NCBI GenBank assembly: GCA_020249465.1
Contig: JADCFP010000123.1
Coordinates: 1-48,478, forward strand
DNA: 48,478 nt
Direction: 5' to 3'
Origin: Roseomonas sp.
Lineage (GTDB): Bacteria > Pseudomonadota > Alphaproteobacteria > Acetobacterales > Acetobacteraceae
Shown here: in pieces, positions 10,018-41,080 of the stretch
How positions within the stretch are numbered: the first letter of the stretch is position 1
How the letters are laid out: the number at the start of each line of letters is the position of its first letter
Made by a program: the position numbers and the translations under genes
Notes under the pieces: generated by a model
The model's database searches: none
Told to the model about the DNA's origin: nothing
The model's input: the letters and a program-made list of their open reading frames with translations, nothing else

Positions 10018-10024
10018 AAACCGG

Positions 10025-10053
10025 TAAGGCCCGCCTGGAAATGGCGGGCCTTA
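10025..10053. terminator. Bidirectional hairpin terminator
   Basis: Perfect 11-bp stem taaggcccgcc / ggcgggcctta with a 7-nt loop, between the DUF2076 stop (10017) and the convergent oxoamine synthase stop codon (10051), which lies inside the hairpin. On the plus strand it is followed by a short pyrimidine run (tcctttgg). Confidence 0.75.
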
Positions 10054-11364
10054 TCCTTTGGCTTCCTGGCGAATGGCGATCAGCGCTGCAACGGTGCTGC
10101 GGATATCGGCCTCACTATGTTCGCTCGACAGAAAGAACCGCAGCCGCGCTGCTTTCTCCGCCACCGCCGGATAGATGATCGGCTGCACATTGATGCCGCG
10201 CTCAAAGAGCTTTTGCGAATAGCGCCCCGCGGCAATCGAAGACCCCAGGATTACCGGGATGATTGCATGCGGTGTGGCCGATCCCGTATCGAAGCCGGCG
10301 GCACGCGCCAATTGCAGGAATAGCGCCGCATTGGCCTGAAGCTGCGTAACACGTTCCGGTTCCGCATGTAAAATCTTCAGGCTTTCCACTGCGGCTGCCG
10401 CCAAGGCAGGCGCGAGCCCCACCGAATAGACAAAGCCGGGCACGGAGTGGCGCAGCCATTCGATCAGGCTGGCATTGCCGGCGATATAGCCGCCACAGCC
10501 CGACAGGGTCTTTGAAAGTGTCCCCATCCAGATATCAACCTCATTCGGGTCAATACCGAAATGCTCATGCACGCCATGGCCGCGCGCACCAATAACGCCA
10601 AGCGCATGCGCCTCATCCACCATCAGCCAGGCGTCATGGCGGCGCGCAATTTCAATGAAACGCGGCAGATCGGGGATATCGCCATCCATGGAATAATGGC
10701 CCTCAATCACCAAAAGCGCCCGTCTTGCGCCGCGCCGCGCCTCGGCAAGGGCGGCCTCTGCGGCGCGCCAGTCATTATGCGCGAAGGAAACCCGCTTCGC
10801 ACCGGAAAGCCGCACCCCTTCCGTGCAGGAATTATGGATCGCCGCGTCATGCACAATCAGATCGCGCGGCCCCATCATATGCCCGATCACCGTGACATTA
10901 GTGGCGTGTCCTGAAACAAACACAAGCGCTGCATCTGCCTGGTAATGCGCCGCAACTGCCGCTTCCAGAGCACCATGCAATGGCCGTTCGCCGGAGACCA
11001 TGCGCGACGCCGAAGCCGATACCCCATGCCGATCAATCGCTGCCTTGGCTGCTGCCTGTACGCGCAGATCACCGTTCAGGCCAAGATAATTGTAGGACCC
11101 GAAATTGATCACCTCCCGCCCTGCAATGACACTATGGGCAGAAGGAACACCTTCATGAGGGCGGAAGAAGGGATTTTCCAATTCAAGATTGGCCGCCGCT
11201 TCGCGGATCAGCGCCATTTCCCGTTGGCCTGGCAATTCACGAAAGCTGCGCAGTGATTCGGGTGCCGGCGCATCCTCGCGCCGACGATGCAGCCGCGCCA
11301 GCAACGCCGCGCGCGTAGCAGCGGAAAGGCCAAAGCCGCTATTCATGGACCATTGCCTGTTCAT
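10051..11364 (-). CDS. PKS-associated alpha-oxoamine synthase (PLP-dependent, SPT/AONS/KBL family)
   Basis: A 437-residue fold-type I PLP enzyme. Family residues: H177 (ring stacking, A-I-H-N-S-C), D250 and H253 in D-E-A-H, and the Schiff-base lysine K285 in T-L-S-K-T-L. The segment F-G-S-Y-N-Y-L-G-L at 88-96 resembles serine palmitoyltransferases. The enzyme should condense an amino acid with an acyl thioester, releasing CO2. An N-terminal extension of about 80 residues precedes the usual start of the fold. The ATG at 11364 overlaps the PKS end by 26 nt; an inner ATG at 11346 overlaps by 8. Because the PKS ends in an ACP without thioesterase, this enzyme probably off-loads the polyketide, as in SxtA or FUM8 systems. 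The amino acid used is unknown. Confidence 0.85.
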   Translation of the reverse strand: MNRQWSMNSGFGLSAATRAALLARLHRRREDAPAPESLRSFRELPGQREMALIREAAANLELENPFFRPHEGVPSAHSVIAGREVINFGSYNYLGLNGDLRVQAAAKAAIDRHGVSASASRMVSGERPLHGALEAAVAAHYQADAALVFVSGHATNVTVIGHMMGPRDLIVHDAAIHNSCTEGVRLSGAKRVSFAHNDWRAAEAALAEARRGARRALLVIEGHYSMDGDIPDLPRFIEIARRHDAWLMVDEAHALGVIGARGHGVHEHFGIDPNEVDIWMGTLSKTLSGCGGYIAGNASLIEWLRHSVPGFVYSVGLAPALAAAAVESLKILHAEPERVTQLQANAALFLQLARAAGFDTGSATPHAIIPVILGSSIAAGRYSQKLFERGINVQPIIYPAVAEKAARLRFFLSSEHSEADIRSTVAALIAIRQEAKG

Positions 11365-14300
11365 GGGTTTCCATCAGCGCCTCAGCAGTCGCGAGATCCG
11401 GATTATCCTTGAACAACGCGCCCGCAACACGCTGCACCAGAATGGCGAGGGTCAAATCCTCGGTCACCGCCGTTAACGGCACGCTGATGCCAAGCCGCCG
11501 TTCCAACGCCATGCGCAATTCGATGCCGCCCAGTGAATCAAGCCCAAGCGCTGGCAATGGTTGATCAACGCGCACGGCCTCTGGCGGCAGGCGCAGAATG
11601 CGCGCCATTTCTTCCCGCGCCAAAGCAAGCACTTCTGTCCGCGCCGCTTCTGGCGTCATGGATAGCAACCTTGCACGCAAGGCTGCGCCATCAGCATCTT
11701 GCGTTGTCATTTGGCTGCCAAGCGCCGCGAAGGCGGGCTCCGTCAGAATGGGCAGCGCTGCCTGCATGCCCCCCCAATTCATGCGCGCCAGATGGATCAC
11801 AGGCGCGCCGGCACCAATCAAGGCGGGCAGCCTTGCCAAGGCTTCCTGCGCGGCCATGGCTTTGGCGCCACTCAAGCGTTCCAGCTTCTCAGCCGCCGCT
11901 GCCTCACGTGTGAGCACGCCGGCATCAGTGATCGGCCCCCATCCAACCGCAAGCGCTGCCTTGCCCTCAGCATGGCGGCGCCGCGCGAGCCCTTCCAAAG
12001 CGGCGTTGGCGGCGACGTAATTTGCCTGGCCGGGATTGCCAAAAACGGTGGTGGCCGAGGAGAATAGCAAAAACAAATGCAAGGGATCATCTGCGGTCTG
12101 TGCTTCCAAAGCCTCTGCCGCCAGAAGCTTCGGCGCCAGCACGCGCGCGAAACTCGCCTGATCCTGCCGCGCTGCGGCGCTATCGGCGAAAACGGCCGCT
12201 GCCTGCACCACGCCGCGAATGGGCGCGCCTTCCGCGCGCAACGCCGAAAGGACAGCGCCAAGCGCGGCACGGTCCGTTGCATCACAGGCATGAGCGCTGG
12301 CGCGGGCGCCGAGTGCCGCCAGAACGCGCAGCGCCGCATCAATCCCGGGTGTGGCCGCACCGCGGCGGGAGATCAATGCAATACGCCTAGCCCCCGCCGC
12401 CGCCAGCCATTTGGCGCATTCCAGCCCAAAGCCTTGCGTGCCGCCCAAAACCACATAACACCCGGCCTCATCCGGCTCCCAAGGTGCAGCGCTGGAATTG
12501 CTCTCCAGCGGCGGGCTGATCACGAGCTTGCCGATATGCGAAGATGCCTGAAGCTGACGGAAAGCGGCTTCCGATTCCTCGGCCGGAAAGGCGCGATAGG
12601 GAAGCGGCAGCAGCGTGCCATCGGCCAGCCGGGCGGCGATATCGCGCAACAACGCCTCAGCCAATGCAGGGCGGGCGCGGGGCAGGGCATCCGCATCCAC
12701 GGCGAAATAGCTGATATTGCGCCGGAAGGCGCCAAGCCCGGCGCGCCGACCTTCGGCAAAATCGCGCTTGCCCAATTCAATGAAGCGCCCAAAGGGCTTC
12801 AGGAGCGCCAAGCTTCTTTCCATCATGATGCCAGCAAGCGAATTCAGCACCACATCCACGCCATCCGGCCAGGTGGCACGGAGTGCATCGGCAAAGCCAG
12901 CATCGCGGCTATCCAGCACCAGATCAGCCCCAAGCTGGCGCAGGAAGGCGCGCTTTTCTGGCGTTCCGGCCGAGGTCGCAACCAGGGCACCCGCTGCCTT
13001 GGCGATTTGCAGCGCCGCTAGGCCAACGCCGCCCGCGCCGCCATGGATCAGCACGCGTTCATTGGGCCGCAGCCTCGCCAAGGTTTCCAGGGAATAGGCC
13101 GCGGTGATGAAAGCAACAGGAATGGTGGCCGCCGCTTCCGGCGTCATGCCTTGGGGCAGCGGTTGCAAAGCCTCCACCCGTGTCAGCGCATGGGTAGCGA
13201 AGGCAGCGGGGGCAAAGCCGAATACCTTGGTGCCCGGCTTCAGCCCGACCCCAGCCCCGGCTTCTTCCACAATGCCAGCGCATTCCATCCCAAGGCTTGG
13301 GCCTGCGAAGCCATCCATCAGCATATCTTCCGGCAGCAGCCCCTGCGCCCACATCACATCGCGGAAATTGAGCCCCGTCGCGGCAATGCGCAGCCTGACC
13401 TCACCTTCGCCAGGCTTGGGCAAGGTTTGGATCGGCTGCCAGACAAGGCTCGCCAACTGTCCAGGCTGGTCTATGGCAAGCCGGCCCGGAAAGGGCGGCG
13501 CCACTGCAGGCAGGCCTGTGCGGAGCAGCGGTTCGAATTGCCCGGCTTCGGAAAGGCTCACTTCTGGCGCAGCCGCCGCCCATTGAGCCATGAGCCGCAA
13601 CGCCAGGTCACCCGGCGATATGCGTGGCGCTGCCGTCACGCGTCGCAGCTTCAGGCCAGACATTTCATTGGCCAATACCCGCCCCAGCCCAAGCATCGCG
13701 CCGGCACGCGCTTCCTCAGCCTGGGCCACCATCATCATCCCCTTTGCCGCACCATCGGCTGCCGCAGCCAGGGCCGTGAGTGCCGCCAAGGTCGAAGCCG
13801 GGTCAGCCATGCCGGTTAGGGCAAGAATTTCCGCACCGCGCAGCGCCTTAGGTGGCGGTGTGTCGCCAAGCTTCAGGAGTGCAGGCCGTTCGGGCCCCCA
13901 AAGCGCAGCAAAGGCATCCGCCAAAGCCATGGCCTCAGCATCGGCAAAAATCACGCTGGGCGCAGCGATCTCACCGGCAGCTTTAGGCGGGTTTGCGATA
14001 GGATTTTGGCCGGAAATCAGCAGCGCGGGCCAGGGCGCTGCCTCCAACGAAATCACCTCGGCCGCTTGCCAGCCCGCAACGCCAAGCCCGGTCCGCCAGG
14101 CGGAGGCATCGGGCAGCGCGCCGTCGGCATCATAGCGCCACCAGGATGGGTCCTGCCCAAGGGTGAAATGCCACAGAGACGCTGGCGCCGGTTCCGCCAG
14201 CAGCAGCGCCGCCCCTGGTGCCGCCTGGGCTGCCAGCCCTTCCAGCAGCCCGAGCCCCGATCGGCTCAATACGGCCGGCGCAAGGCCCAGAACCACATCC

Positions 14301-17300
14301 GCCCTTTCCGCCACGGCGGGCGCAGATTTAAGGCTTTCCCAGGCGTCAAAACGAAGCGTGATGTTTTCTGCCACCGCGCCAGAGGCACCAGCCTTTGCCT
14401 CGCCAATGGCGCGGTAATGAATACGCCGGCCGGTCGCGCCAAGCACCGCCAAAGCGCCACGCGTCAATGCGCCCCCCGCGCCCAGTTCCAAAACCTTGAG
14501 CGGCCTATCCTTGGGCCAGGCAGCCGCCAATTCACGAAGCCCCGCCAAAAGCGGCGCCGCAAGGGCGCGCATGGCACCACCCTGGGCCGGTGGTGGGGGC
14601 AGGGTCTCTGCTTCACCGAGCAGGGCCGGCACCACTTGCTCCCGGGCGCGTGCCAGCCAGCCAAGATCGAGCGCCAGTTCAGGCTGTTCGGCCAAGACAG
14701 CGCGCCAGATGGCCTCAGGCGGCGGAAGGGGCTGATCTTCAAGGAGGCGCCAGCCGACGGCCAGCGGTTCCGCGGCTCCAGCCGCCGCCAGAATACGCCA
14801 AAGCGCCGCACGGTAAGGGCTTGCCGGGGCAGCATGATCGCGCAAGGCCGGCAGCGCTTCCGCGGCAAGATAGGCTTCCAGCAATAGCCCCGATTCCGCC
14901 ATGGGGGCCATTTGATCCCGGGCACGAACCGCCGCCAAAATCGGTTCCAAATCAATCGGTGCTGGGCCACCAGCCTCAGCCAAGCTTGGCACCGGATCGA
15001 GCCGAAAGGCAAGGCTTTCCAGCCGCTCCCGACCGGGCCTTGGCATGCGCTGGAACCAAATATCCTCAATCAGGGCGATCACCGCGCCAGCGGCATCGCG
15101 CAACGTCAGGCTTGCGGCAAAAAGCCTGGCGCCGCGTCGCCCTGGGATGATTTCCGCTGAGGCAATGGGTGCGGCATCGCGCCTCGCACAAAGCCTGCCG
15201 ATCCGGACCGGGACAATGGCCTGATCTGCGCCAAGGCTCTGTCCCAGCAGCAACGCGAAAAGCCCCTGCAAGGCGCCATCCAGCAGCGCGGGATGGAGCA
15301 TGAAACCATCATGATCCGGCGCTACTTCCGGCAGAATAAGGCGCGCCATTGCGGCGCTTCCGCCCGCATCTTTCGCCACAGTTTGTAGGCTTTGAAAGGC
15401 TGGGCCGTAATTCAAGCCATGCCGTGCAGCAAAGGCGATCACTTCCGAACCCTGGATCTGGCGCGTCTCCGCAAATTCAATCGTCGGAGCATCGGGCAGG
15501 CGTGGTAGCGGCGCGAAGCGCGCGCGGGCGCAAAGGGTCGGCGGCTCCTCAGCAAGGCGCGGGCGTGCTTCCAGGGTGAAGCCACCTTCGCCATCTGCCT
15601 TGTGGCGCAATTCCACCAGGCTCTCATTATTCAGGGTGACGGCACGCAGGATGGCGAGGTCCTGCACCTCCAGCACCGGGGCGTCGGGATGCATGAGCGC
15701 GGCAGCCGCCAGGGCGGCTTCCGCCATGGCGGCAGCGGGCAGCACGGCCTCACCAAACAGCTTATGATCAGCGAGCCACGGCGCGGCGGCGGTATCCAGC
15801 CACTGGGTCCATTGTCCTGGAGCGAGCCCTTGGCGGAACCCAAGTAGCGGATGATCCAATTCAGGGACCGTCATCCGCGCAGCTTCAACGGAAGATGGGA
15901 ACCAAATGGACCGTCGCGCAAAAGGGGTATGTGGCAATAGAGCGCGTTCAGCAGCACCCTGAAATGCGGGTGCGGTGCGCGGATCAGCGCCAGCAGCAAT
16001 GGCCCGATCGGCTATGGCTGGGAAGGGGTTCCCCGATCCATCCTGGCGTTTCAGGCTGGACAGGATCACAGCTTCCACCGTTGCGGCGCGCAGCGTTTCC
16101 CGGAGATAACTTTGCAAAACCGGTGCGGGGCCGATTTCGAGGAACAGCCGCGCACCCTGCCGCGCCGCTTCCGCTATCGCCGCCTGAAAGCGCACCGGTT
16201 CGCGCAGATTGCGCCACCAGTAAGCCGCCCCAGCTTCAGATCCGGGCAAGGTCATACCGGTGACCGAGGAAATCATCGGGCAATCACCCGGTCTGGTGCT
16301 GATCCCGGCCAAATCCTGCAACAGCCCTTCACGCACTGGCTCCATCGCAGCGCTATGGAATGCGTAATCCAGATCGAGCGGGATCGCGACGAGGCGCGCC
16401 GCTTCCGCGGCCTGGCAAAGCCGGGCTATCGCAGCCTCAGGCCCCGCGATGGTGAGGGCTGCTGGGGCGTTGATCGCAGCGATTTCAAGCCCCGGCCCGC
16501 ATTCTTCGAGCAATGGCGCAAGGGCTTCGGGGGTCCCGCCGATAGCCGCCATGCGCCCGGTGCCGCGCGTTGCATGCTGATGCCGGCTGCGCGCCACAAT
16601 CAGCGCCGCCGCCTGATCCAGCGAGAGTATTCCTGCCGCTTGTGCTGCGGCCACTTCACCGACGGAATGACCAATCACCAAGTCAGGCGAAATGCCTTCC
16701 GCCTTCAGCGCCGCCAGAACACCCATCTGCACCGCAAAAAGCAGGGGCTGGGCTAGGTCGGTACCGGCCAAGGCGGCATCGCTTACGCCCGCCTTGATCA
16801 AAGCAGCCGGCGAAACCCCAAGCCGTGGCGCCAGCGCCGCATCAGCGGCCAGCACGGTGCGCCGGAAGACAGACGAGGCACGAAACGCCTCCCGCGCCAT
16901 GCTCGCATGCTGCGCGCCATTGCCGCTGAAGACAAAGGCGATGCGGCCAATCGCGGCGATTCCCTGCGCGATACTCGCTTCGCGTTCTCCGCCTTCGTAG
17001 GCAGCCAATCGCTCAGACAAGGCGGCGCCATCGGCCCCGCGCAACACAAGCCGATGCGTCGCCAGATCACGATGCCGCGCCTGACCGCGCGCAAGTGCTG
17101 CCGCCTGCGCGGGCCCCGCACCCGCAAGCGTGTCACGCCAAGCCGCGACTGAAAGCCGCAGGGCCTCAGCAGAACGAGCGGAGAGGATCAGCGGCGGGGC
17201 AGTCTTTGCCTTGGCGGTGCGCTTGACCGGTGCAGCAGGCGCGCGGCCCAAAAGCGCCGCAGCATTGGTGCCGCCGAAGCCAAAGGAATTCACGCCAACA

Positions 17301-18547
17301 ACCGCGTCATCGGCGACCACAACCGATTCCATCGCGCGCGGTACAGCAAGGTTCAATTCGGCAAAATCAATCGCCGGATTGGGGTTTTCGAAATGCAGCG
17401 CGCGCGGCACGAAACCCTGTTCCAGCATGAGCATGGCCTTGAGTAACCCGGCCATGCCCGCGCCAGCTTCCAGATGGCCAATATTTGCCTTGGCGGAGCC
17501 AACCGGCAGCGGCGCGCTGCGCGCGCGCGCAATCGCCTGTCCAATCGCCCAGGCTTCGATGGGATCACCCGCCTGAGTGCCGGTACCATGGGCTTCAAAG
17601 GCCATGAAGCGGTCCGGATGTACCGCGCTTTTCTGCAGAACTGTCTTCAGCAATACAGCCTGTGCATCACGATTGGGGAGCGAAATGCCAACGGTACGCC
17701 CGGCCGTATTGCTCCCCGTCCCAAGCAGGAGCGCGCGGATTGGTTCCTGCGCTGCCTTGGCATCGGCAAGGCGGCGAAGGATGACAATGCCTGCCCCTTC
17801 GGCGCGCACATAGCCATCCGCAGCTGCATCAAATACTTGGCATCGCCCGCGCTGCGAGAGCATGCCCGCACGGGAAAATCCCATAAAGGCATAGGGCGAG
17901 AGCAGCAGGTTGACCCCGCCAACTACAGCGGCTTCCAGCGTAGGATCATCGGCAAGGGCTTGCGCGGCAAGATGCAGCGCCACCAGCGAGGATGAACAGG
18001 CGGTATCAATGGTCTGCGCCCCGCCGCGCAGATCAAACACATGGCCGATGCGATTGGATAGGATGGAAAGCGCATTTCCGGTCATGTGGAAACGGTCACC
18101 CGCCGCGGGATCATCCAACCGCAATTCGCCGAAATCGGTGGAAGAACCACCGATAAAGACCGCGATGTTGCGCCCAGCCAAAGCTTCCGGCCGCAGCCCT
18201 GCATCCTCAAAGGCGTCGCGAGTCACTTCCAACAGCAGGCGTTGCTGGGGATCAGCTTCCGCGATCTCCCTCGGCGAAAGGCCGAAGGCTTCAGCATCAA
18301 AGCCCCTAATATCGCCGATCGTCCCGGCAGCAAAGCTGTAGCTGCGACCCGCTACATCAAGGCGCGGGTGATACCAGCGCGCTTTTTCAAACCGATCGCT
18401 CGGGACTTCAGTGACGGCATCAACCCCTTCGCGCAGCAACGCGCCATAGGCGTTGAGGTCCTTCGCCCCGGGCAGCCTGGCGGCGGCACCAATGATCGCA
18501 ATGGGCGCAGGGCGGGCTCGATCCGATTTCGCTGTGCGGCTAGGCAT
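11339..18547 (-). CDS. Single-module reducing type I polyketide synthase (KS-AT-DH-MT*-ER-KR-ACP)
   Basis: A 2402-residue megasynthase. KS (about 14-436): C184 in D-T-A-C-S-S-S, H320 in E-A-H-G-T-G-T, H358 in N-I-G-H-L. AT (about 535-835): S628 in G-H-S-V-G and Y-A-F-H at 728-731, which suggests malonyl-CoA. DH (about 895-1170): H928 in the HxxxGxxxxP motif, D1090 and Q1094. Residues 1340-1500 resemble a methyltransferase with a degenerate SAM loop (L-E-L-G-A-G-G-A). ER (1690-2012): H-G-G-A-G-G-V-G at 1835-1842. KR (2030-2260): G-G-T-Q-G-F-G, S2164, Y2177, N2181. ACP: S2338 in G-L-D-S-L-G. No thioesterase. All reductive domains look intact, so it probably works iteratively to make a long saturated chain. 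Start chosen at the ATG at 18547, 7 nt after the glycosyltransferase stop; a TTG at 18589 is the alternative. Confidence 0.93.
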   Translation of the reverse strand: MPSRTAKSDRARPAPIAIIGAAARLPGAKDLNAYGALLREGVDAVTEVPSDRFEKARWYHPRLDVAGRSYSFAAGTIGDIRGFDAEAFGLSPREIAEADPQQRLLLEVTRDAFEDAGLRPEALAGRNIAVFIGGSSTDFGELRLDDPAAGDRFHMTGNALSILSNRIGHVFDLRGGAQTIDTACSSSLVALHLAAQALADDPTLEAAVVGGVNLLLSPYAFMGFSRAGMLSQRGRCQVFDAAADGYVRAEGAGIVILRRLADAKAAQEPIRALLLGTGSNTAGRTVGISLPNRDAQAVLLKTVLQKSAVHPDRFMAFEAHGTGTQAGDPIEAWAIGQAIARARSAPLPVGSAKANIGHLEAGAGMAGLLKAMLMLEQGFVPRALHFENPNPAIDFAELNLAVPRAMESVVVADDAVVGVNSFGFGGTNAAALLGRAPAAPVKRTAKAKTAPPLILSARSAEALRLSVAAWRDTLAGAGPAQAAALARGQARHRDLATHRLVLRGADGAALSERLAAYEGGEREASIAQGIAAIGRIAFVFSGNGAQHASMAREAFRASSVFRRTVLAADAALAPRLGVSPAALIKAGVSDAALAGTDLAQPLLFAVQMGVLAALKAEGISPDLVIGHSVGEVAAAQAAGILSLDQAAALIVARSRHQHATRGTGRMAAIGGTPEALAPLLEECGPGLEIAAINAPAALTIAGPEAAIARLCQAAEAARLVAIPLDLDYAFHSAAMEPVREGLLQDLAGISTRPGDCPMISSVTGMTLPGSEAGAAYWWRNLREPVRFQAAIAEAARQGARLFLEIGPAPVLQSYLRETLRAATVEAVILSSLKRQDGSGNPFPAIADRAIAAGADPRTAPAFQGAAERALLPHTPFARRSIWFPSSVEAARMTVPELDHPLLGFRQGLAPGQWTQWLDTAAAPWLADHKLFGEAVLPAAAMAEAALAAAALMHPDAPVLEVQDLAILRAVTLNNESLVELRHKADGEGGFTLEARPRLAEEPPTLCARARFAPLPRLPDAPTIEFAETRQIQGSEVIAFAARHGLNYGPAFQSLQTVAKDAGGSAAMARLILPEVAPDHDGFMLHPALLDGALQGLFALLLGQSLGADQAIVPVRIGRLCARRDAAPIASAEIIPGRRGARLFAASLTLRDAAGAVIALIEDIWFQRMPRPGRERLESLAFRLDPVPSLAEAGGPAPIDLEPILAAVRARDQMAPMAESGLLLEAYLAAEALPALRDHAAPASPYRAALWRILAAAGAAEPLAVGWRLLEDQPLPPPEAIWRAVLAEQPELALDLGWLARAREQVVPALLGEAETLPPPPAQGGAMRALAAPLLAGLRELAAAWPKDRPLKVLELGAGGALTRGALAVLGATGRRIHYRAIGEAKAGASGAVAENITLRFDAWESLKSAPAVAERADVVLGLAPAVLSRSGLGLLEGLAAQAAPGAALLLAEPAPASLWHFTLGQDPSWWRYDADGALPDASAWRTGLGVAGWQAAEVISLEAAPWPALLISGQNPIANPPKAAGEIAAPSVIFADAEAMALADAFAALWGPERPALLKLGDTPPPKALRGAEILALTGMADPASTLAALTALAAAADGAAKGMMMVAQAEEARAGAMLGLGRVLANEMSGLKLRRVTAAPRISPGDLALRLMAQWAAAAPEVSLSEAGQFEPLLRTGLPAVAPPFPGRLAIDQPGQLASLVWQPIQTLPKPGEGEVRLRIAATGLNFRDVMWAQGLLPEDMLMDGFAGPSLGMECAGIVEEAGAGVGLKPGTKVFGFAPAAFATHALTRVEALQPLPQGMTPEAAATIPVAFITAAYSLETLARLRPNERVLIHGGAGGVGLAALQIAKAAGALVATSAGTPEKRAFLRQLGADLVLDSRDAGFADALRATWPDGVDVVLNSLAGIMMERSLALLKPFGRFIELGKRDFAEGRRAGLGAFRRNISYFAVDADALPRARPALAEALLRDIAARLADGTLLPLPYRAFPAEESEAAFRQLQASSHIGKLVISPPLESNSSAAPWEPDEAGCYVVLGGTQGFGLECAKWLAAAGARRIALISRRGAATPGIDAALRVLAALGARASAHACDATDRAALGAVLSALRAEGAPIRGVVQAAAVFADSAAARQDQASFARVLAPKLLAAEALEAQTADDPLHLFLLFSSATTVFGNPGQANYVAANAALEGLARRRHAEGKAALAVGWGPITDAGVLTREAAAAEKLERLSGAKAMAAQEALARLPALIGAGAPVIHLARMNWGGMQAALPILTEPAFAALGSQMTTQDADGAALRARLLSMTPEAARTEVLALAREEMARILRLPPEAVRVDQPLPALGLDSLGGIELRMALERRLGISVPLTAVTEDLTLAILVQRVAGALFKDNPDLATAEALMETHEQAMVHE

Positions 18548-18554
18548 GGCCAAT

Positions 18555-19928
18555 TCAGGGGGATGCCGATGACGGCGCGGCAACAACACCCTGCATCGAC
18601 CTGGCGGGGATGCCTGCCGCCAGCTGACGTGTCACCAAGCCGGCAGGGGCCAGCGCGATTTGTTGGAGCCATGGCTCCACCATGGAGAAATGGTGATCCC
18701 AACTCGGCGCTGCCCAGCGCTTCAGGCGCTCCAGCTGCGCTTGTCGCATTCTGCTGTCATGTTCAGCATAGCCCAAAATCAGGCGGCGCCAGCCAAGCCC
18801 ATCCAAGGGGTCCAGATAATCTGGCGCGCTGCCACCCACTTCCCGCAGCGCTGGCAGGTCTGAGCAAATGGCTGGTACGCCAAGCGACAGCGCTTCGGCC
18901 AGTGGCAATCCATAGCCTTCAACAAAGGACGGAAACAGCAAAGCCTGGGCACCCTGGAGCAGTCTTGCGACCGCCTTATCCGGTAATCCATTGTATTCCC
19001 GAACAAGCCCAACAAGTGCCGGACAGCGATCCAGCATATCCAGGATGTTCTCATTCTCCCAGCCGCGCCGCCCAATCAGAATAAGCTTCGGCGCTGCAGA
19101 CCCAAGGCGTTCCGCAAGCACGCGCCAGGTATTCAACAGCATCAGATGGTTCTTGCGTGGTTCGATGGTGCCAATACAGACAAAGTAAGGTTCTGCCGGG
19201 ATTGGGAAATTCATATCCGCTGCCGGCATATCAATGCCGAGCGGCGCACAGAGCATCGGGATATCATGGTCCCCCCGGCGGAAATGGGGCGTAATTTCCT
19301 GCGCCGTGGAGGTCGAATTGGCAATCACGCCATCCGCCAAACGGGCAAAGGTATCAACAATGCGAAAATGACGCCTGGTTCCGGCCGGGGAGGCATATTC
19401 AGGAAAGCTGGCAGGAATGACGTCATGCACCAACGGCACGAACTTCATGCCACTGCGCTTGAAATTCATCATGACGTCGAGACGATCCGCCCACATGATC
19501 GAGACAAGCAGGTAAACGCTATCTTGGGGCGACCTCAAGGCGCGCCGCAGGTCCAGAAGACCGCGGCCGAGGCAAAGCCGACCAATGGCTTTTCGTGCCA
19601 GCGAGGCCGCCGATTTTGATGCGGCCTGCCAACCGGCGGAACCAAGCCGACGCTCATCAAGCGCAAACAGGAAATCCTCAACAAGGCTACGCGGAACGGC
19701 AACCGCGAGGCCAGGCGGCCCCCGCAGCACAAAGGTGACGTGCTCCGGGTCCTTCGACAGCCAATGCCTTGCATAGGCGAATTCCACACGATCAATACCA
19801 GAGGGCATGACCCGCCACGCCCCCAGGACCAACCGAGTAATGTCAAGGACTAACCTCAAGCGTCTTTCCTTCACCGACCGAGAAAATGCCTCAGACTGAT
19901 TCCTGATACCGAAGGACGCCCAACACAT
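18555..19928 (-). CDS. Glycosyltransferase, GT4 type (GT-B fold)
   Basis: About 457 residues. The C-terminal domain shows the family-4 pattern: C-I-G-T-I-E-P-R-K-N-H at 251-261, then S-F-V-E-G-Y-G-L-P-L-A-E at 334-345 containing E337-x7-E345, which binds the nucleotide sugar. V-I-A-N-S-T at 201-206 is also typical. The N-terminal half (L-D-I-T-R-L-V..G-I-D-R-V-E) is the acceptor domain. It probably transfers a sugar from an NDP donor in the cytoplasm. First gene of the GT-PKS-oxoamine synthase run. No good ribosome site precedes the ATG at 19928; a TTG at 19859 with aaggaa upstream would remove about 23 residues. Its position suggests that it glycosylates the product, but this is inference. 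Confidence 0.85.
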   Translation of the reverse strand: MCWASFGIRNQSEAFSRSVKERRLRLVLDITRLVLGAWRVMPSGIDRVEFAYARHWLSKDPEHVTFVLRGPPGLAVAVPRSLVEDFLFALDERRLGSAGWQAASKSAASLARKAIGRLCLGRGLLDLRRALRSPQDSVYLLVSIMWADRLDVMMNFKRSGMKFVPLVHDVIPASFPEYASPAGTRRHFRIVDTFARLADGVIANSTSTAQEITPHFRRGDHDIPMLCAPLGIDMPAADMNFPIPAEPYFVCIGTIEPRKNHLMLLNTWRVLAERLGSAAPKLILIGRRGWENENILDMLDRCPALVGLVREYNGLPDKAVARLLQGAQALLFPSFVEGYGLPLAEALSLGVPAICSDLPALREVGGSAPDYLDPLDGLGWRRLILGYAEHDSRMRQAQLERLKRWAAPSWDHHFSMVEPWLQQIALAPAGLVTRQLAAGIPARSMQGVVAAPSSASP

Positions 19929-20324
19929 CAATGACCAAAAAAGACATTTGCCTGGTTCTGAGGCAGCAACGCAGCGATGAATTGTCGCAGGCAGACTTGG
20001 CTGCCCTCCCCGAGCCCGTGGGTCTCAAACCGGGCCTTCGGCTTTGCCGCCCGCCGGCCCAATCGCTGATGCCGATTGCCGCCAGCAGCGTTGATCGGTC
20101 TAGCCTACAGGGTGGATGGTCCCTATCCGTTCCATTGGCAATGGATTGCGGTTCCGCAAACGGACCTCAATTGCTCCGATGGCTCGATTTGTGCTGGCCA
20201 TGCCCGATCCAGGAATGCGCCCAGGCGCCACTCGCCAGATGGGCGGCAGCAGATTTACCCTTTCCTCGGGAATCGACGGCAATGGCCGGACCGCTCGCAC
20301 CTCCGCAAGGGATACCAACAGACC
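19929..20324. other. Intergenic region between divergent glycosyltransferase and thioesterase genes
   Basis: About 396 bp with no recognisable gene. A plus-strand open frame of 139 codons beginning at 19931 overlaps both neighbours' start regions, has no visible ribosome site and no recognisable domain. The region presumably carries the promoter of the GT-PKS-oxoamine synthase genes, but no convincing -35/-10 pair was identified by eye. Confidence 0.5.
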
Positions 20325-20774
20325 ATGACCATCTGGAAACGCCCAACTGACCCCACAGCCATCGAAGCCAGGCTGGCCAATAGCCTGCCAGGCGCCTTTG
20401 GCATCCGAATTCTTGAGGTCGGGTCGGATTTCCTTCGCGCCGAAATGCCAGTGGATCGGCGCCATGTGCAGCCCTATGGTATTTTGCATGGCGGGGCCTC
20501 GGTCGTGCTCGCTGAGACCTTGGGCAGCATCGCGACCACCTTGACCCTGCCTGAGGGGCAGCATGCCGTGGGGTTGGAGGTGAATGCCAACCACCTTTCG
20601 GCCGTGCCTGAGGGGGAAACCGTGACCGCCCTATGCCGCGCGCTCCATCTTGGGCGACGGACCCAGGTCTGGCAGACGGAAATCCAGCGGCCCAATGGCA
20701 AGCTTGCCTGCGTATCGCGCCTGACCACAGTGGTGCTGGATGCCAAGGCCGATGAGCGACCGCTGCCCGGCTAG
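20325..20774 (+). CDS. PaaI/YdiI-type hotdog-fold acyl-CoA thioesterase
   Basis: A 149-residue hotdog thioesterase. The signature H-G-G-A-S-V-V-L-A-E-T is at 55-65, with E64 as the probable catalytic residue and G57-G58 at the thioester site. The V-G-L-E-V-N-A-N-H-L strand is also typical. It hydrolyses acyl- or aryl-CoA thioesters in the cytosol. The ATG at 20325 is preceded by caaggg. Divergent from the PKS gene set; editing of stalled chains is conceivable but not shown. Confidence 0.88.
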   Translation: MTIWKRPTDPTAIEARLANSLPGAFGIRILEVGSDFLRAEMPVDRRHVQPYGILHGGASVVLAETLGSIATTLTLPEGQHAVGLEVNANHLSAVPEGETVTALCRALHLGRRTQVWQTEIQRPNGKLACVSRLTTVVLDAKADERPLPG

Positions 20775-39740: not shown

Positions 39741-40312
39741 CTATGGATTGAATGGAAGGACCCATCGATATGGCCATAGACAAAGCGTTGCTGGACCTGC
39801 TTTTGGCTGGGCGAGAGCCCCACGAGCTATTCGCCAAGAACGGTCTGATTGACGAGCTGAAGAAGGCGCTTTCGGAGCGGATGCTGGCAGCTGAGCTGGA
39901 CGATCACCTTGAATCAGAGGCCGAGGCGGGGCTCGGCAATCGCCGCAACGGCACCTCAAAGAAGACGATGCTGACCGGCTCATCGAAGTTGACGCTGGAT
40001 ATTCCGCGCGATCGGTTGGGCACCTTTGATCCCAAGCTGATCGCCAAGTACCAGCGGCGTTTTCCGGATTTCGACGACAAGATCAGCTCGATGTACGCGC
40101 GCGGCATGACGGTGCGCGAGATCCGCGGACATCTGGAGCTTTACGGCATTGATGTCTCGCCGGACCTGATCTCGACAGTGACAGACGCTGTGCTTGAGGC
40201 CGTGACTGAATGGCAGGGCCGCCCGCTTGATGCTTGTTATCCGCTGGTATTTTTCGCTGCGATCCGGGTGAAGATCCGCGATGAAGGCTTTGTCCGCAAT
40301 AAGGCGATTTAT

Positions 40313-40414
40313 CGTGCTTCCCATGCACATTCGTTCATAGGAAGCACGCCAGGTCTTGTCTGATCGCATTTTCCGAGCCGCCAAGTGAAGCCACTTGGCT
40401 TGAAAATGCTTTGC
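40313..40414 (+). repeat. 102-bp insertion within the transposase gene
   Basis: The codons on either side (K-A-I-Y and I-A-L-G-I) are normally adjacent in the family, which delimits the insert exactly. It has two hairpins: cgtgcttcc / ggaagcacg (40313-40348) and the REP-like element at 40356-40410. No clear target duplication. Length is a multiple of three. Confidence 0.75.
40356..40410 (+). repeat. REP-like hairpin element, copy 3
   Basis: Starts ttgtctgatcgcattttcc and ends cttgaaaatgct; inner stem ccaagtg / cacttgg with loop aagc. Same family as the copies at 9285 and 24550, with two changes in the leading segment. Confidence 0.75.
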
Positions 40415-41080
40415 ATCGCGCTTGGTATCTTGCCAGATGAAACCAAGGAAATCCTCGGCCTCTGGATCGAACAGACCGAAGGGGCCAAGTTCTGGCTGCG
40501 CGTCATGAACGAGCTCAGGAACCGGGGTGTCGCCGATATCCTGATTGCCGTTGTTGATGGTCTCAAGGGCTTTCCGGAGGCGATCCATGCGGTGTTTCCG
40601 AAGACCGTGGTGCAGACCTGCACTATACACCTGATCCGCAATTTCATGAGGTTTGCGTCCTGGAAGGACAGGAAGGCGATTGCAGGGGCGCTTCGCGGCG
40701 TCTACCTGGCCGAAAGCGCCGAGGCCGGCCTGGCTGCCCTGGAGGCCTTTGAGGCGGGTCCATGGGGCCAAAAATATCCGGCCATTGCGCAAAGCTGGCG
40801 CCGACACTGGGACCAGGTGCTACCCTTCTTTGCGTTCAGCCCGCCGATACGCCGGATCATTTACACAACGCATGCGATCGAGGCCTTGAATTCGAAGCTC
40901 CGACGGGCGGTGCGCACGCGTGGCCATTTCCCGGGTGACGATGCGGCGATGAAGCTGCTATACTTTGATCTCAATCGGGCGGTCGAATGAATGGAAGCGA
41001 CCGCCGCGCGAGTGTTGTGAGGCCAAAACCGAATTCGCCATCCTGTTCGGCGATAGGTTCGTGGTCTGATGATCGAAACC

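Follow-up and report, generated by a model that had tools for sequence, protein, structure and literature searches.

A Roseomonas gene trio with a putative capsule-lipid module of the rkp-1 and Sga kind

The closest described relatives of the genes considered here are the rkp-1 capsule region of Sinorhizobium meliloti and the sphinganine pathway of Pseudomonas fluorescens MYb115. The genes encode a glycosyltransferase (GT), a polyketide synthase (PKS) and an alpha-oxoamine synthase (AOS), and form a trio in a stretch of Roseomonas sp. DNA of 48,478 nt (contig JADCFP010000123.1, assembly GCA_020249465.1), hereafter the window. Names of the genes rkpA to rkpJ are those of the literature, as given in the accessible text of three sources (PMC7902896, PMC4881576, PMC3557214), the S. 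meliloti record compared here being annotated by product only. In the accessible text, the rkp-1 products serve capsule secretion by making a ‘specific lipid carrier’ (PMC4881576); elsewhere they are described as making a ‘lipophilic molecule’, maybe a carrier or an anchor (PMC3557214). In both sources the statements on the lipid go back to work of 1993 and 1997. In P. fluorescens, according to the accessible text of a 2025 paper (PMC12134224), formation of C24, C26 and C28 sphinganines depends on the PKS SgaA and the AOS SgaB. In its purified form, SgaB joins acyl-CoA to L-serine, for which it has a ‘virtually exclusive preference’ over alanine and glycine. In the same text, masses shifted by +154 Da are assigned as most likely phosphoglycerol sphingolipids, a short-chain dehydrogenase/reductase (SDR), SgaC, is proposed as the ketone reductase, and 6101 clusters homologous to sgaAB are counted, ‘dominantly’ in Burkholderia.

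A probable lipid module related to rkp-1 and sgaAB

The three genes of the trio are all on the minus strand: GT at 18555-19928 (457 aa), PKS at 11339-18547 (2402 aa) and AOS of the RkpG/SgaB type at 10051-11364 (437 aa). Gene limits, strand, the 7 nt between GT and PKS and the 26-nt overlap between PKS and AOS are as reported in a first-pass annotation of the window. An inner ATG at 11346 is an alternative AOS start that would shrink the overlap to 8 nt (ATGAATAG); it may be the true start, as the alignment to most relatives does not begin before residue 6-7. The trio is probably the Acetobacterales form of the rkp-1/wcb lipid module, which is also that of sgaAB, with a product that would serve as capsule lipid carrier or anchor and not as a free glycosphingolipid. 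The capsule-gene context of relatives suggests this role, which is an addition to the first-pass annotation.

Homology carries the first part of this reading. Compared with S. meliloti, the PKS is 35.6% identical to RkpA over almost the full length and the AOS 51.4% identical to RkpG; the figures for Pseudomonas TMW 2.1634 (locus L040) are 36.0%, again almost full length, and 56.1%. The S. meliloti locus has the order PKS, AOS, SDR, capsule gene, which is that of rkpA, G, H and J. In L040, the order is PKS, AOS, then further on an LTA-synthase (lipoteichoic acid synthase) gene and an SDR gene. The locus-tag distance between SgaA and SgaC (RS19805, RS19775) equals that between PKS and SDR in L040 (RS26445, RS26415), so that the two layouts may correspond. 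A plasmid collection contains 1350 records matching the PKS and 589 matching the AOS, and its high-ranking matches have both in the same loci of Paraburkholderia, Methylobacterium, Caballeronia, Sinorhizobium, Pseudomonas, Rhizobium and Shinella. Among six of the high-ranking plasmid loci that were examined, four have the PKS directly beside the AOS, and the two from Burkholderiaceae have one gene in between. Five of the six are annotated, all with capsule or polysaccharide-export genes; the sixth is unannotated. Two irregular loci were seen. In S. meliloti Ak57 (L037, 21696-23417), no gene is annotated between the rkpH- and rkpJ-like genes and the frame has stops, so rkpI may be broken there; in a Planktothrix agardhii plasmid (L180, 1560-9158), the PKS and AOS matches lie within one open reading frame.

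The AOS (Aminotran_1_2 by Pfam) falls in a clade of 43 rows in a 57-row tree (support 100/99), together with S. meliloti RkpG and the Pseudomonas AOSs. All rows for serine palmitoyltransferase (SPT), 5-aminolevulinate synthase (ALAS), Kbl and BioF lie outside this clade. The rows were picked by hand from 129, and several of the outgroup are long branches, among them the only SPT row (L170), which is above the SPT cut-off. Outgroup rows were labelled by hand and then checked: the NCBIfam cut-offs are passed by the five ALAS rows, SPT and Kbl, but by only one of the two BioF rows. The AOS is not a canonical bacterial SPT, with 300.6, 275.7 and 217.5 bits against cut-offs of 640, 500 and 670 and a place outside the clade of the trio AOS for the SPT row; nor is it BioF, being under that NCBIfam cut-off and again on the other side of the clade boundary in the tree. 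At E 1e-40 the Roseomonas genome has two oxoamine-synthase genes, that of the trio and one above the ALAS cut-off.

The trio AOS scores below the NCBIfam cut-off of every oxoamine family matched and its amino acid specificity is predicted only, which leaves room for a secondary metabolite, namely an amino ketone or amino alcohol polyketide built from alanine or glycine instead of serine and secreted as a signal or bioactive compound. We regard this as very improbable: the closest characterised homologue strongly prefers serine (PMC12134224, accessible text), and the genus keeps the trio at one fixed place, for which reason a novel secondary-metabolite cluster is not the preferred interpretation.

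The PKS is a single-module type I enzyme by Pfam, motifs and alignment, with the domain order KS-AT-DH-(C-methyltransferase fold)-ER-KR-ACP. Pfam assigns KS (17129-18505, residues 15-473; Cys-His-His motifs present), AT (15983-16936, residues 538-855; GHSVGE and YAFH motifs, Ser present), DH (15029-15853, residues 899-1173; His and Asp present), ER (12518-13411, residues 1713-2010; nucleotide-binding motif present), KR (11927-12463, residues 2029-2207; nucleotide-binding motif, Ser/Tyr present) and ACP (11429-11617, residues 2311-2373; GLDSL serine present), all on the minus strand. The residues counted are those we take to be catalytic in these six domains. The single module with complete DH, ER and KR seen in the first-pass annotation thus stands, with one region that had been missed. 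This C-methyltransferase (CMeT)-fold region lies between DH and ER (13478-15010, minus strand, residues about 1180-1690); its AlphaFold2 model has a predicted local distance difference test score (pLDDT) of 79.5 and a predicted template modelling score (pTM) of 0.64, and its best Foldseek matches are the CMeT domains of CurJ and of the citrinin PKS. The glycine-rich CMeT motif is degenerate in most of 13 aligned homologues and the region is perhaps a non-catalytic relic. For the window PKS itself it cannot be called dead, its motif being nearly intact. Because most homologues have no intact motif, an unbranched chain is expected; iteration and chain length are likewise predicted from homologues. 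No second type I PKS was found in the 4.07-Mb genome. The five remaining PF00109 matches sit in open frames of 405-433 aa, and there is one match to a phosphopantetheinyl transferase family.

In the proposed mechanism, the PKS would iterate with full reduction in each round, giving a long saturated acyl-ACP. By analogy with the biochemistry of the homologue PfSgaB, the AOS would join this acyl thioester to serine with loss of CO2 to form 3-ketosphinganine. An SDR of the RkpH/SgaC type would reduce the ketone, and in many relatives an LTA-synthase-like RkpI may add phosphoglycerol, as the probable phosphoglycerol sphingolipids of P. fluorescens suggest. The KpsS-like RkpJ and capsule glycosyltransferases would presumably extend the head group before export by KpsDEMT, the GT of the trio most likely adding a sugar early in capsule assembly. 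The first-pass annotation had pictured a candidate pathway for a 3-ketosphinganine-like glycolipid, independent of fatty acid synthesis. The 3-ketosphinganine is well supported by homology to SgaA and SgaB of P. fluorescens (PMC12134224, accessible text), with serine as the probable amino acid. A new stand-alone glycolipid pathway is not supported, the PKS-AOS pair being of an already described kind (Rkp/Wcb and Sga), an outcome that the first-pass annotation had itself listed as refuting. The starter unit of the PKS could come from fatty acid synthesis.

The rkp ‘lipid carrier’ and the PKS-derived sphingolipids look like one system. This connection appears to be new: open-access literature searches, in which papers citing the Sga work were judged by title and abstract opening, returned no paper linking rkp capsules with PKS sphingolipids. 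In the accessible text of the later literature the chemical nature of the rkp-1 lipid appears open (PMC4881576, PMC3557214), and the 2025 discovery of PKS-derived sphingolipids, in its accessible text, made no capsule connection (PMC12134224). If the two are one system, both questions become testable by lipid analysis of purified capsule. It is quite possible, if short of probable, that the rkp/wcb carrier is a PKS-made very long-chain sphinganine, often capped with phosphoglycerol by the LTA-synthase-like RkpI, so that to the KpsS-like RkpJ it looks like lyso-phosphatidylglycerol. On this view, capsules anchored by a sphingolipid would be spread over many Proteobacteria and reach a few further phyla, in some cases with a chain that no PKS has made; the form found in Acetobacterales would be distinguished by an early glycosyltransferase of its own.

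Capsule genes near and away from the trio

Capsule context was scored in the best 80 of 590 confirmed AOS loci, with match cut-offs set before counting and left unchanged. A PKS is found in the flank of 76 of these 80, a capsule gene in 44, and a capsule gene or RkpH/RkpI in 57. Among the 55 of them with full flanks (at least 20 kb), the counts are 54, 34 and 46. As a control, the 20-kb neighbourhoods of 20 other oxoamine synthases (18 from the genus, two from another genome of the class) were scored in the same way, and none has a match. Four of the best 80 have no scored PKS: L082, with a PKS end below the cut-off at the contig edge, and L120, L142 and L144, to which we return below. In Roseomonas-like Acetobacterales, RkpJ follows the AOS in eight of nine named loci (exception L077).

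The genus itself gives a similar picture. Fourteen of the 22 trio loci fetched hold 19-20 kb; in nine of these, RkpJ and RkpI face the trio, with RkpH in eight. RkpJ is found in 27 of 35 genus genomes, counting a weak fragment in G025. Both AOS and RkpJ occur in 27 genomes, AOS only in two, RkpJ only in none and neither in six (Fisher 1.7e-5, or about 5e-5 by hand if the G025 fragment is dropped), values that are inflated by shared descent since the genomes are not independent. In the two genomes with AOS only (G017, G030), the contig stops within RkpI or shortly after it, and so RkpJ may merely be cut off.

Capsule genes also exist elsewhere in the Roseomonas genome, where they were sought with PF05159, PF02563 and protein queries. 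Contig C83 has one RkpJ copy (Capsule_synth, PF05159; 44% identical to S. meliloti RkpJ) and a KpsM-like permease, and contig C153 has KpsT-, KpsE- and KpsD-like (Poly_export) genes; of these, KpsM (27%) and KpsE (25%) are only weakly assigned. The trio lies apart from all of them.

Several observations weigh against a capsule role. No capsule gene was found at the chosen cut-offs in the 48-kb window, nor in five 19-20 kb trio loci of its closest congeners. A search of 34 genomes gave no RkpI match in the Roseomonas genome, with RkpI present in 12 of 19 other genomes of the genus (that of the query included) and in one of 14 more distant ones; the best RkpH match, an SDR on another contig, is 40% identical to the RkpH of a congener. 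As the genome is 97.5% complete and in 162 contigs, absence of RkpI and RkpH is likely, not certain, and may mean another head group, unlinked enzymes for these steps or missing contigs. Among the best 80 of 590 loci, neither a capsule gene nor RkpH/RkpI is seen in nine of the 55 full neighbourhoods and in 23 of all 80, and no PKS turned up in the 9.6-10 kb upstream in L120, L142 and L144. Three of the six genus genomes with neither the trio AOS nor RkpJ (G007, G015 and G026; loci L063, L064 and L073) carry no trio but an AOS that is more distant (48-49%); a PKS and an SDR stand beside this AOS in G015 and G026 (L063, L064), and the G007 contig begins at the AOS. Such cases indicate that the module need not serve a capsule. 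Finally, the accessible text of the Sga paper has no mention of capsules (0 matches for ‘capsul’; PMC12134224).

An alternative, close to the first-pass annotation, is a sphinganine that is secreted or a (glyco)sphingolipid that stays free in the membrane, in either case unconnected with a capsule, the GT glycosylating the base directly. The lack of capsule genes around the trio in the window and in five close congeners, the three genomes with a related AOS and no RkpJ, and the free sphinganines and probable phosphoglycerol sphingolipids that P. fluorescens accumulates (PMC12134224, accessible text) would all fit it. We nevertheless hold it to be unlikely, though a serious contender, in view of the capsule context in other congeners and elsewhere, the presence of RkpJ in 27 of 29 trio-bearing genus genomes, and GT homologues within capsule loci, once beside genes for 3-deoxy-D-manno-octulosonic acid (Kdo).

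The capsule-lipid interpretation is also supported by two capsule loci, from Acidisoma and Nitrospira, that retain an oxoamine synthase without a neighbouring PKS. An Acidisoma plasmid (L178, 5234-15216) has a capsule locus with an AOS of the wider clade, an SDR, an LTA-synthase-like protein, an FA_hydroxylase-family protein, KpsS/KpsC-like proteins, the GT type and export genes; no PKS occurs in the available stretch. In a contig of a Nitrospira metagenome-assembled genome (L120, 10001-21095), the AOS heads a capsule locus with KpsEMT, KpsD, RkpJ, a KpsC-like protein and the GT type, and the 10 kb upstream are free of a PKS. An AOS can thus belong to a capsule locus although its acyl chain has to be supplied from some other source. 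A different set occurs in L066 (12997-19997), where a wider-clade AOS forms an operon-like set with myo-inositol-1-phosphate synthase, an SDR, CTP_transf_1 and an LptF/LptG pair, with no PKS found; it looks like phosphosphingolipid synthesis and export.

The glycosyltransferase and the surroundings of the trio

An AOS of at least 74% identity occurs in 29 of the 35 genus genomes searched, that of the window included, and the GT adjoins the PKS in 17 of the 22 genus loci fetched, the contigs of the remaining five stopping inside the PKS. The arrangement is therefore not due to chance. Beyond the genus, the GT directly precedes the PKS in seven of 11 named Acetobacterales loci (L076, L077, L078, L080, L081, L091 and L095), the contigs of L079 and L082 being too short to show it. 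Conservation in relatives, on which the first-pass annotation had made its case depend, is thus found in the genus and in seven of the nine named Acetobacterales loci with room. The GT is a fixed third gene in part of Acetobacterales.

The GT has group 1 domains (Pfam) of the GT4 type in a GT-B fold, which its model gives with confidence (pLDDT 85.8). An N-terminal motif GIDRVE/AYAR is conserved in an alignment of 15 sequences, and the EX7E motif is formed by E337 and E345. Donor and acceptor cannot be read from Foldseek, which returns many different GT-B enzymes at 10-17% identity. Homologues of 37-45% identity occur within the capsule loci L094, L120, L131, L134 and L141, and in Novosphingobium a homologue stands beside kdsA, kpsF, kdsB and a capsule gene. 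Such settings suggest a role early in capsule synthesis. Of the sugar transfer supposed in the first-pass annotation, the transfer itself is most likely right; the acceptor may be a capsule linker instead of the sphingoid base.

Alternatively, the PKS and AOS alone could be the lipid module, the GT being a mere neighbour that serves an unrelated polysaccharide, a view that is compatible with the other interpretations. In loci examined outside Roseomonas-like Acetobacterales, the GT type is not beside the PKS, and a second homologue (40%) is encoded in the Roseomonas genome amid housekeeping genes (L205, 5394-6632). Even so, a bystander GT seems rather unlikely given its place beside the PKS in every one of the 17 genus loci that have room for it, in addition to the Acetobacterales loci above, and the close 7-nt spacing in the window. 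The two Acetobacterales loci that depart from this order, Gluconacetobacter L151 and L153, have the GT type past RkpJ in the same locus.

Downstream of the AOS, a terminator-like inverted repeat of 13 pairs (10023-10055) lies between the convergent AOS and DUF2076 genes. It has the longest stem among the listed inverted repeats of the region; as a class these are not enriched (15 sites against 12.5 in shuffles), and a promoter scan was uninformative (2 found, 2.3 expected). On the other side, a 4HBT hotdog thioesterase (20295-20774, plus strand; Pfam) is the divergent neighbour of the GT. It is found there in all 16 genus loci that extend beyond the GT, and also near the GT in L078 and L095, and is possibly a proofreading enzyme for the PKS. 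Farther away, a frame at 39752-40990 (plus strand) matches Mutator-family transposases (PF00872); the next open reading frame reads like the other half, and the gene is apparently broken.

Comparison with known systems

The trio shares with rkp-1 of S. meliloti, and with wcb-type loci of Burkholderiaceae, a full-length RkpA-like single-module PKS adjoining an AOS of the RkpG clade. RkpJ (PF05159) is present in the genome, and RkpH- and RkpI-like partners are present in congeners. It differs in starting with a GT gene and in having its RkpJ on another contig. An RkpH SDR and RkpI clustered with the PKS and AOS were found neither in the window nor elsewhere in the genome, and the trio is therefore called a relative that would work like the rkp-1 lipid module, not a complete rkp-1 region.

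With SgaA/SgaB, for which the Pseudomonas loci L040 and L084 were used for comparison in place of the MYb115 sequence, the trio would have in common the two-gene combination of an iterative PKS and an AOS of the SgaB type, to judge from its agreement with those two loci. The cluster as described in the accessible text has two genes and no GT (PMC12134224). Canonical SPT belongs to the same oxoamine synthase family as the AOS and has the same chemistry (E 4.6e-68 to PDB 3a2b; 34.6% identity to the SPT row L170); the acyl donor of the trio AOS would differ, being presumably a PKS-bound chain.

The swf PKS/fatty acid synthase clusters of sponge symbionts resemble the trio in a mono-modular KS-AT-DH-ER-KR-ACP enzyme; according to the accessible text, the partners there are a reductase/sulfotransferase (SwfB) and a radical SAM protein, with no AOS (PMC3908369). 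The trio is not a swf cluster, as it has no SwfB partner and its KS motif is HGTGT, in contrast to HATGT in swf. Finally, the group 2/3 capsules of E. coli have counterparts here in the KpsS-like RkpJ and the KpsDEMT-like export genes. There, KpsS and KpsC act on phosphatidylglycerol, a glycerophospholipid (PMC13410964, accessible text), whereas the carrier made by the trio would be a sphingoid base.

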